This document shows, piece by piece, positions 38,111 to 40,152 of a DNA stretch of 64,000 bases. Made by a program: the position numbers and the translations under genes. Within the stretch, counting starts at the first letter, position 1. Every line of letters begins with the position of its first letter. Location: positions 248,001 to 312,000 of the forward strand of contig NZ_CP010523.2 of the NCBI RefSeq assembly GCF_000828055.2, given 5' to 3'. The DNA is from Klebsiella variicola (lineage in GTDB: Bacteria > Pseudomonadota > Gammaproteobacteria > Enterobacterales > Enterobacteriaceae). The notes below the pieces were generated by a model. That model saw nothing but the letters and a program-made list of their open reading frames with translations, made no database searches and had not been told where the DNA came from.

Positions 38111-39124
38111 TCAGTTCAACCCAAGAAAATACTGGGCTATTTTGAAATAGATAATCAGCCCGGTGCCATCAATCAGCGTAGCGATAAACGGCGCGGAAAC
38201 CACCGCCGGGTCGATGCCGATCCGCTTAAGCACCATCGGAATGATCGACGAGACAATCGCGCTCCACAGGGTAATACATACCAGCGTCAGGCTGACGATC
38301 AGCGTGATTTCCATGCCAATCCCCATCATCCAGGCGCGCAGGCAGCCCGCCAGACCCAGGGTCAGGGCAATCAGAAACGAGGTCGACACCTCTTTGCGGA
38401 TCACCCGCCCCATATCGCGCAGCCGCACTTCCCCCAGCGCCATCGAGCGCACCAGCGTCGAGGTGATCTGCGTTCCGCTATTGCCGCCGGTGCCGATGAG
38501 CAGCGGAATAAAGAAGGCGAGGGCGATGGCCGATTCCAGCGCCTCTTCGAAATGCTGCAGCACGCTGCTGGTATAGGCTTCGGCCACGAACAGCAGCAAT
38601 AGCCAGACCGAACGTTTCTTCCACAGCGTCCACGGACTGATTTCCAGATACGGTTTTTCCAGCGGCAGCGTCGCCCCCTGCAGCTGGGCGTCTTCGGTGA
38701 CGTCATCCTCCAGCAGATGGGCGATCTCCTTTTCCATCAGGCAGCCGACCAGCTCGCCTTTATCGACAACCGGTACCAGGTCGAGGCCGCGCTCGGTGAG
38801 TTCGGCAATCACCTGCGGGCGCTCGTCGTCAGGTTTGACGCGAAACAGGCAGCTGTCCATCAGGTAGCGGATAGACTGCCCGACATCCCCTTCCTGCAGG
38901 AGCTTTTTGACCGACAGGCTGCCGCGCAGTTTCCTGCCGGCGACGACAAACACCTGGCCGGGAATGTCATCACTGTCCAGCTGGGAGATAAAGTGTTCGC
39001 GCGCCTCATGGACGCTGAGATGTTCCTGCAGCGTAATAAAATCGGTACGCATGTACTGGGCGATCGCATCGCCGTCGAAGCCAGAGGTCGCCTGATGGGC
39101 GGCGCAGAGTTGAATGGAAGACAT
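38111..39124 (-). CDS. mgtE: MgtE-family magnesium transporter, short form without the N domain
   Basis: The 337-aa protein has a tandem CBS pair (about residues 22-140, with VFVVAGRKLRGSLS and LVPVVDKGELVGCLM). A five-helix MgtE membrane domain follows (about 170-335), carrying the signature PLLIGTGGNSGTQ at 207-219. Typical MgtE proteins are about 450 aa with an extra N-terminal helical Mg2+-sensing domain; that domain is missing here. It should carry Mg2+ (possibly Co2+) across the inner membrane. The leader contains an M-box riboswitch, which fits repression by Mg2+. AGGG lies 9 nt before the ATG at 39124. It is not part of the E. coli K-12 neighbourhood. Confidence 0.9.
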   Translation of the reverse strand: MSSIQLCAAHQATSGFDGDAIAQYMRTDFITLQEHLSVHEAREHFISQLDSDDIPGQVFVVAGRKLRGSLSVKKLLQEGDVGQSIRYLMDSCLFRVKPDDERPQVIAELTERGLDLVPVVDKGELVGCLMEKEIAHLLEDDVTEDAQLQGATLPLEKPYLEISPWTLWKKRSVWLLLLFVAEAYTSSVLQHFEEALESAIALAFFIPLLIGTGGNSGTQITSTLVRSMALGEVRLRDMGRVIRKEVSTSFLIALTLGLAGCLRAWMMGIGMEITLIVSLTLVCITLWSAIVSSIIPMVLKRIGIDPAVVSAPFIATLIDGTGLIIYFKIAQYFLGLN

Positions 39125-39133
39125 GATTAAAAT

Positions 39134-39158
39134 CCCTATAAAAAATCACTCATAGGGG
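39134..39158 (-). promoter_or_regulatory. Predicted Shine-Dalgarno-sequestering hairpin of the mgtE leader
   Basis: On the minus strand CCCTAT (plus 39152-39157) can pair with ATAGGG (plus 39134-39139), which contains the mgtE ribosome-binding site. The same CCCTAT can instead pair, with one G-U, to GTAGGG at the 3' edge of the M-box (plus 39188-39193). These mutually exclusive pairings would make a translational on/off switch. This is inferred from base complementarity only. Confidence 0.55.
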
Positions 39159-39183
39159 CGAACAAGACAGGGTTAGCGCAGGC

Positions 39184-39360
39184 AGATCCCTACGTCCTGG
39201 TTTTAGCACTGCATAACGTATCTGAACGGTCATGACCGCCAGAAGTTACCTTGGCAACACCTTGATTCGATGGAAGCCTGTATTTCCCTGAGTGGTCTCT
39301 CTCGATACCAACAGGGCGGTAACTTGTATTTATGCAGGAGCCTCGCCATAACGAGATCGT
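39184..39360 (-). ncRNA. M-box (ykoK leader) magnesium riboswitch upstream of mgtE
   Basis: Read on the minus strand, the leader carries the conserved M-box blocks in order. They are GTTATGGCGAGGCTCCTG (near plus 39352-39335), GTTACCGCCC, a GAGAGACCACT segment, CATCGAATCAAGGTG, and CAGTGCTAAAACC near the 3' end (around plus 39200-39212). These match, block by block, the Bacillus mgtE M-box as I recall it. The outer segments GATCTCGT and ACGTAGGGATC could form the closing P1 helix. It lies 60 nt upstream of mgtE, whose product is a Mg2+ transporter, which supports the call. The boundaries are approximate. Confidence 0.85.
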
Positions 39361-39418
39361 TAAATGAGGCGCCATTATTGGCGAAGAGGGATAATTCACA
39401 AAGCGTATAATTTATGTG

Positions 39419-39459: not shown

Positions 39460-39508
39460 TTGACTTCATCTTGTGCTATCATTAGCTTGACTTCAATGGA
39501 TGAAGTCA
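39460..39508. promoter_or_regulatory. hicAB promoter/operator
   Basis: TTGACTTCA occurs twice (39460-39468 and 39487-39495). The second copy forms a perfect inverted repeat with TGAAGTCA (39501-39508) across a 5-nt spacer. An extended -10, TGCTATCAT (39474-39482), lies between the copies, so a bound repressor would cover the promoter. HicB antitoxins usually autorepress through a C-terminal DNA-binding domain, which this HicB has. Confidence 0.6.
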
Positions 39509-39520
39509 TGGGGCAGGGCG

Positions 39521-39796
39521 ATGGAGCAGCAGGTTTTATCTTTACGTAATAAACAGCGCCACACGCTGGAGCAACTGTTTAAAATCCCTGTGCCACAGGG
39601 CATTAAATGGGCCGACATTGAATCGCTAATTAAAGCGTTAGGCGGGGAGATTAAAGAAGGACGCGGCTCGCGCTGTAAATTTTTGTTGAACCACAGCATT
39701 GCCAGCTTTCACAGGCCTCATCCTTCGCCGGATACTGACAAAGGCGCCGTGGAGAGCGTGCGCGATTGGTTAATCACTATAGGGGTAAAACCATGA
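39521..39796 (+). CDS. hicA: HicA-family toxin
   Basis: The protein is 91 aa from ATG 39521 (MEQQVLSLRNKQRHTLEQLF). An in-frame ATG at 39500 lies inside the operator palindrome and is disfavoured. HicA toxins are small mRNA-cleaving proteins with a double-stranded-RNA-binding fold. Seen are IKWADIESLIKALGGEIKEGRGSR, FHRPHP at 63-68 and the tail DKGAVESVRDWLITIGV, all typical of one HicA subgroup. In the classical members a histidine follows Gly-Ser (GSxH); here it reads GSRCK at 49-53, so the catalytic residue may differ. It overlaps hicB by 4 nt. Confidence 0.85.
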   Translation: MEQQVLSLRNKQRHTLEQLFKIPVPQGIKWADIESLIKALGGEIKEGRGSRCKFLLNHSIASFHRPHPSPDTDKGAVESVRDWLITIGVKP

Positions 39797-40152
39797 TCAA
39801 ACCTAAAACGCCAAACTCAATGGAGATTGCCGGCCAGCCTGCCGTTATCAATTACGTGCCTGAGCTCAATGCATTCCGCGGTAAGTTCCTTGGATTATCA
39901 GGATATTGCGATTTTGTTTCCGATAGTATTCAAGGGTTACAACAGGAGGGCGAGATATCATTACAGGAGTATCTCGCAGATTGTCATGAAGCGGGGATTG
40001 AGCCTTATGCTCACCCGGAAAAGATGAAAACCTTCACGCTGCGCTATCCTGAGTCATTTGGCGAGCGTCTTAGCTCCGCCGCTGCGGAGGAGCAGGTTTC
40101 CGTAAATACCTGGATCCTTGAGACGCTCAATGAACGTCTCAAACAGGCTTAA
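39793..40152 (+). CDS. hicB: HicB-family antitoxin
   Basis: The protein is 119 aa from ATG 39793, overlapping the hicA stop (ATGA). HicB antitoxins bind and block HicA and repress the operon. The N-terminal half has the partially degraded RNase H-like HicB fold (VINYVPELNAFRGKFLGLSG, then DFVSDSIQGLQQEGEISLQE). The C-terminal 40 residues (FTLRYPESFGERLSSAAAEE, then SVNTWILETLNERL) form a ribbon-helix-helix DNA-binding domain. The toxin-first gene order is usual for hicAB. The pair is an accessory unit between conserved mgtE and nik loci. Confidence 0.88.
   Translation: MIKPKTPNSMEIAGQPAVINYVPELNAFRGKFLGLSGYCDFVSDSIQGLQQEGEISLQEYLADCHEAGIEPYAHPEKMKTFTLRYPESFGERLSSAAAEEQVSVNTWILETLNERLKQA

Follow-up and report, generated by a model that had tools for sequence, protein, structure and literature searches.

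A predicted translational M-box riboswitch upstream of mgtE in Klebsiella variicola, with a candidate platform that draws on both strands of P1

The M-box has long been known upstream of mgtE, and chiefly as a terminator switch. The Mg2+-II riboswitch of the mgtA leader (RF01056) likewise puts an enterobacterial magnesium transporter under Mg2+ control, but it is an RNA family distinct from the M-box; the genome analysed here carries it as well (117.8 bits, G000:C1:4945858-4945973), and we take it to precede a P-type ATPase gene. In Bacillus subtilis the M-box of mgtE (ykoK) works through an intrinsic terminator (PMC12810186), and the pe20 M-box of Mycobacterium tuberculosis was presented as the first translational one to its authors' knowledge (D'Halluin et al. 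2026, PMC12810186). The pe20 switch is coupled to Rho, controls a small upstream ORF and takes its anti-anti-SD from the aptamer-associated SD1 region (PMC12810186).

The leader described here shares with the ykoK leader, or Mg2+-I riboswitch, the RF00380 aptamer family and the kind of gene, but it has no conserved U-tract and possesses a helix masking the Shine-Dalgarno sequence (SD) that varies on both sides. With pe20 it shares a translational platform made of SD, anti-SD and anti-anti-SD; however, the Klebsiella M-box would act directly on mgtE, and its proposed anti-sequester is the P1 5' strand, with a separate helix, AH, in addition. The pe20 paper is the only earlier one with a translational M-box that we found among the literature matches listed. 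None of the open-literature matches listed concerned an enterobacterial translational M-box, which is weak evidence because subscription papers lie mostly outside that scope.

We propose, with a probability of roughly 0.6, that the Klebsiella M-box is a translational Mg2+ OFF switch on mgtE that works by 'double capture', the details being predicted and supported by comparison. With Mg2+ high, the aptamer would fold and P1 (GAUCUC/GGGAUC) would lock, and with P1 locked the downstream CCCUAUGAG would pair with the SD through the helix SH (CCCUAUGAG/UUUAUAGGG), thus blocking initiation. At low Mg2+ P1 would fail to hold and both of its strands would find new partners: the 3' strand would pair with CCCUGUCUUG to give AH, whereas the 5' strand, together with GGCGA of the core, would pair with AUGAG and UCGCC to give AS, spanning around 190-200 nt. 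AS would then keep hold of the SD-masking strand during transcription of the SD, and ribosomes could load. The match to the aptamer, the gene and the conservation of the elements are observed; AH, AS, SH and their mutual exclusivity are predicted by folding. AS and SH would compete because the SD-masking strand shares positions with the 3' side of AS; AH and AS would compete with the folded aptamer because each takes one P1 strand, AS2 sharing nucleotides with the 5' strand and AH with the 3' strand, so that in the computation the anti-anti-SD and P1 exclude each other. We infer the direction of the switch and the kinetic nature of its ON state, and the ligand is presumably Mg2+. A sequence-only reading of this DNA had already let Mg2+ close P1 and CCCUAU hide the SD; this switch logic fits, but not the partner that it gave to CCCUAU, namely the GUAGGG at the 3' edge of the M-box.

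Regarding the aptamer, the same reading had placed an M-box on mgtE, and this was borne out by the Infernal search with RF00380 (108.4 bits against a gathering threshold of 44, E 3.1e-23, model positions 1-169 of 169) and by PF01769 in the gene. It was the sole Rfam match at gathering level within the window, that is, the whole 64-kb stretch of DNA analysed, and the RF00380 search found one copy in the 5.52-Mb genome. The conserved blocks GAGGCTCCTG, GTTACCGCCC, CATCGAATCAAGGTG and CAGTGCTAAAACC were all found in the order given for them, and the three hexamers on which the reading built its switch lie exactly where it had put them on the minus strand (CCCTAT 39157-39152, GTAGGG 39193-39188, ATAGGG 39139-39134). 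Its statement that GUAGGG is locked in P1 holds for the GGG part, but GUA falls outside, since the P1 strand is GGGAUC (39190-39185). The aptamer is thus almost certainly a genuine member of the M-box riboswitch family. Three further matches to the leader came from a plasmid collection, with 98.0-98.7% identity over 301 bases, all of them named Klebsiella.

The M-box lies in the leader of the magnesium transporter gene, on the same strand, with 56 nt from the end of the model match to the mgtE start codon and the SD 9 nt upstream of that codon. The product is a short MgtE, because TIGR00400 stays under its cut-off (203 against 232.75 bits) and its alignment begins no earlier than profile position 127. 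The consensus scan gave 3 sigma-70-like sites in the 661 bases scanned, where 0.8 were expected, and the predicted promoter (Table 1) ends at 39374 on the minus strand, directly upstream of the aptamer. Divergent from the leader, and between it and nikR, sits a hicA/hicB-like toxin-antitoxin pair (39500-40152, plus strand; PF07927 35.5 bits, PF05534 55.8 bits). The genome also holds a second, distant MgtE, 26% identical and without an M-box (G000:C1:1575915-1576856).

Table 1. Positions in the window of the mgtE leader elements and of the gene behind them.
Feature	Position	Strand	Basis
Putative sigma-70-like promoter, TTGTGA-16-AATAAT	39374..39401	-	consensus scan; weak evidence
M-box (RF00380) aptamer	39181..39362	-	cmscan, 108.4 bits, full length
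P1 5' strand, GAUCUC	39353..39358	-	Rfam alignment
P1 3' strand, GGGAUC	39185..39190	-	Rfam alignment; paired in 100% of cells, 34 group-1 leaders
AS2 5' side, CUCGU, overlaps P1 5' strand (predicted)	39351..39355	-	nascent fold; C-G to U-A change with partner
AS1 5' side, GGCGA, aptamer core (predicted)	39343..39347	-	nascent fold
AH 5' side, CAGGACguAGGG, overlaps P1 3' strand (predicted)	39188..39199	-	nascent folds, 65/66; 97.8% of cells paired
AH 3' side, CCCUGUCUUG (predicted)	39163..39172	-	nascent folds, pairing counts
AS1 3' side, UCGCC (predicted)	39157..39161	-	paired and invariant in 34/34 group-1 leaders
AS2 3' side, AUGAG, overlaps SD-masking strand (predicted)	39149..39153	-	nascent folds, pairing counts
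SD-masking strand, SH 5' side, CCCUAUGAG (predicted)	39149..39157	-	predicted fold; co-varies with SD side in relatives
SH 3' side, UUUAUAGGG, contains SD (39134-39139) (predicted)	39134..39142	-	predicted fold; terminator-pattern scan
mgtE start codon	39122..39124	-	reading frame, leader comparison
Short mgtE, 337 aa	38111..39124	-	PF01769 E 4.2e-33, CBS; TIGR00400 203 bits, under cut-off

M-boxes were carried by 17 of the 20 genomes searched within the genus, by 56 of 295 in the family draw and 79 of 392 in a larger draw overlapping with it, and by 32 of 394 in the order draw, 19 of these in one genus of another family; genomes overlap between draws, and the searches spanning more than 40 genomes used stricter filters. 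The class draw matched 2 of 369 genomes at E 0.001, namely the window's own genome and one below the cut-off. The 3 genomes of the genus that lack the M-box also lack this mgtE, the best match being a 479-codon frame 25-26% identical. Two genomes have tandem M-boxes (L034, L039), in units around 1.4 kb apart and each with its own mgtE frame, and one genome (G1071) has three M-boxes. The members of the other-family genus (those among L076-L094 that are of the other family) have a different linker behind the M-box, in many of them with a strong hairpin (ATGACaCGCCG/CGGCGtCAT) and with an SD-containing hairpin (ATCACA/TGTGAT), which looks like another expression platform.

The enterobacterial leaders fall into two types with different linkers: group 1, which is Klebsiella-like and has GGGAUC or GGGAUU as P1 3' strand, and group 2, which has mostly GAGAUA. 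The main set comprised 66 distinct leaders (32 of group 1 and 34 of group 2) out of 73 gathered. We omitted L074 for an insertion within the aptamer, L021, L029 and L052 because the longest frame starting at most 400 nt behind the M-box had 67, 55 and 46 codons, and 3 duplicates; L059, L060 and L064 had been left out earlier as repeats of L042, L044 and L048, and L007 was retained despite a frame ending after 37 codons. Counts over 34 group-1 rows are the 32 leaders plus L096 and L099. A further set of 32 loci yielded 22 leaders, after removal of three that could not be parsed (L114, L116, L124) and 7 duplicates; 10 of the 22 resembled a member of the 66 to 97% or more, and the other 12 stayed below 97%. 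Altogether 88 distinct leaders were folded (66 + 22), all rows being related.

In L074 (G308, match 1501-1683), from one genome of the genus, the M-box is interrupted in its 3' part, on the mgtE side, by an insertion of around 185 nt that has inverted ends; further core letters have drifted (55.1 bits), and mgtE is open and 92% identical. By its sequence this is an apparent natural example of a lost or damaged switch. L029, L052, L021 and L124, behind whose M-boxes no long frame was found, lack the [CU]GCC block that AS1 would need, as is expected if that block serves the switch.

The helix over the ribosome-binding site formed by CCCUAU and AUAGGG, as the sequence-only reading had drawn it, is supported, since its two sides vary together in relatives: CCCUAU/AUAGGG, CCCCAGG/CCGGGG and CCUCG/CGAGG. 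The SD was masked from upstream in 35 of 42 real group-2 sequences against 45% of the shuffles, and in 44 of 46 of group 1 against 84%. The latter is not clearly above chance, because the C-rich linker readily masks GGG; therefore, SD masking is statistically weak in group 1 and the case rests on the paired changes. In the MAFFT alignment A1 the SD was off by 1-2 columns in several rows, so this side of SH was counted by anchors instead of the pair counter. These observations suggest that the output is the hiding and exposing of the ribosome-binding site and not a transcription stop, and a translational output of the M-box on mgtE is likely.

Concerning AH and AS, the pairs of AH were kept in 97.8% of the cells in the 32 group-1 leaders, with no two-sided change. 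In AS2 a C-G pair is replaced by U-A, with pairing kept, in 6 of the 32 group-1 rows; this is a single event, because in the MgtE tree all carriers group in a single clade (support 100/96), and no second independent compensatory event in AS was found after broadening the leader sample. On the 32 group-1 leaders the pair counter exceeded 500 of 500 shuffles in paired cells, in two-sided-change cells and in covariation score; there was 1 pair changed on both sides, with 366 of 500 shuffles as high, and for further pair types 500 of 500 shuffles were as high. UCGCC is kept in all 34 group-1 leaders, though its UCG is used by neither P1 nor SH; two 'ATGCC' entries of this group were taken as regular-expression matches in an upstream CATGCCC, as present in L037 and L038. 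In group 2 the 5' flank GCAG, which lies outside P1, is conserved in 40 of 42, and in 41 of 42, all but L006, the C-run that masks the SD has a complementary CUG at most 22 nt behind it. Counted anywhere in the linker, CUG occurs in 42 of 42, so the 22-nt limit is the stricter one.

The 3' strand of AH also bears on an alternative whose main output is termination by Rho: Mg2+ would lock P1, free the C/U-rich AH strand and block translation, and Rho would load and stop RNA synthesis within the leader or the first part of mgtE. The strand so freed, UGCCUGCGCUAACCCUGUCUUGUUCGC, is indeed pyrimidine-rich, and the published translational M-box of pe20 works with Rho (PMC12810186). However, any strand that pairs with a purine-rich one is bound to be rich in pyrimidines, and we regard Rho as unlikely to be the main output, even though it may act jointly with double capture.

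Nascent transcripts ending before the SD were folded without constraints, an element being counted from 3 expected pairs on (5 for AH), with energy models that ignore Mg2+ and tertiary contacts. AS2 formed in 32/32 leaders of group 1 and 32/34 of group 2, AS1 in 32/32 and 25/34, and AH in 32/32 and 33/34, whereas P1 formed in 0 of 66. Exceptions in group 2 include L011 and L013, from each of which AH or AS2 is missing, and L058, which has no AS2. With dinucleotide-shuffled linkers (groups 1 and 2 respectively) AS2 appeared in 20% and 11%, AS1 in 2% and 0.4% and AH in 53% and 31%, and the shuffled linkers were as stable as the real ones in 17 of 256 and 50 of 272 cases; these fractions are not probabilities, because all rows are related. 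Among the 22 further leaders AS2 formed in 21, AS1 in 17 and AH in 22. In L130 AS2 was nearly absent (0.4 pairs), and in five leaders belonging to one genus it barely passed the threshold with 3.1 pairs.

We also folded full-length RNAs in which P1 was disfavoured by energy penalties and the SD was kept open. Here AS2 formed in 15/32 and 26/34 leaders of groups 1 and 2, AS1 in 19/32 and 19/34, and AH in 32/32 and 31/34. Opening the SD was cheaper without P1 in 25 of the 32 group-1 leaders and 26 of the 34 of group 2; the mean saving was 1.5 and 1.0 kcal/mol respectively, the maximum 5.4 kcal/mol, and the saving exceeded 1 kcal/mol in 16 and 15 leaders. In the window's leader the cost of opening the SD is 7.4 kcal/mol whether P1 is present or not, and the saving is only 0.1 kcal/mol; in forced ensembles AH+SH reaches -90.4 kcal/mol against -86.1 for AH+AS, a gap of 4.3. 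Its initial folds, among the output listed, also had a mostly masked SD in either state. Since the SD of this leader is predicted to be masked at equilibrium in both states, the ON state would have to be kinetic, with AS in place before the SD.

The equal cost in both states speaks for another reading, according to which the aptamer is real, SH is always formed, and in this species the switch has hardly any effect or does no more than fix a low basal level. Against it, AH and the AS elements are conserved across both leader types and in the further leaders, and other leaders depend clearly on P1, by up to the maximum saving given above; we consider such a constant helix improbable.

Equally improbable, in our judgement, is the translational switch of the sequence-only reading, in which low Mg2+ opens P1 and lets CCCUAU pair with the GUAGGG at its 3' edge. 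The two hexamers match perfectly over 6 bp in the window, and 99.0% of the cells are paired in the 32 group-1 leaders, without, however, any two-sided change. Energetically this pairing reaches -80.5 kcal/mol in the window against -86.1 for AH+AS, that is, it is 5.6 kcal/mol worse, and it attained 3 expected pairs in 0/66 nascent folds, 0/66 SD-open folds and 0/22 further leaders, in a model that does not admit a pseudoknot with AH. Nor is it general, because the group-2 leaders have GAGAUA-like letters there and do not conserve it. Consequently, GUAGGG/CCCUAU was rejected as main partner at low Mg2+ on energies, fold counts and the lack of two-sided change, and the anti-sequester proposed in that reading is probably wrong.

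The same reading had seen no terminator. This stands in so far as no U-tract is conserved, but one terminator-like site does exist, formed by the SD hairpin (39157-39134) followed by ATTTTAATCA, where 0.6 are expected in shuffles. Of 65 leaders, 11 have at least 4 U within the 8 nt after the GGG of the SD, and the window's is one of them; the 66th, L006, is without GGG. The intrinsic-terminator platform typical of M-boxes, a G+C-rich hairpin with a U-tract, was not recovered: the pattern scan gave this one weak site, and the U-tract is not conserved in the 65 leaders. That SH is an intrinsic terminator in a transcriptional switch as in Bacillus is therefore very improbable: the only pattern is this weak one, close to the chance expectation, SH has only 3 G-C pairs and spans the SD next to the start codon, and few leaders have the U-tract, so intrinsic termination was rejected as output.

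What is new in the Klebsiella case would be that the switch acts directly on mgtE and, as proposed, employs both strands of P1. It is about an even question whether the Enterobacteriaceae M-boxes as a group are translational switches that share the 'double capture' platform, acting directly on a magnesium transporter, with the 5' P1 strand from around 200 nt upstream as anti-sequester and the decision made during transcription. If true, the architecture of this platform would match neither the terminator of Bacillus nor the uORF/Rho switch of mycobacteria. A translational M-box on mgtE, occurring in numerous genera within a single Gram-negative family and built from helices with shared nucleotides, would be tractable in E. 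coli reporters. Such a system could address how different outputs arise from one aptamer and how the RNA reads Mg2+ while it is transcribed.
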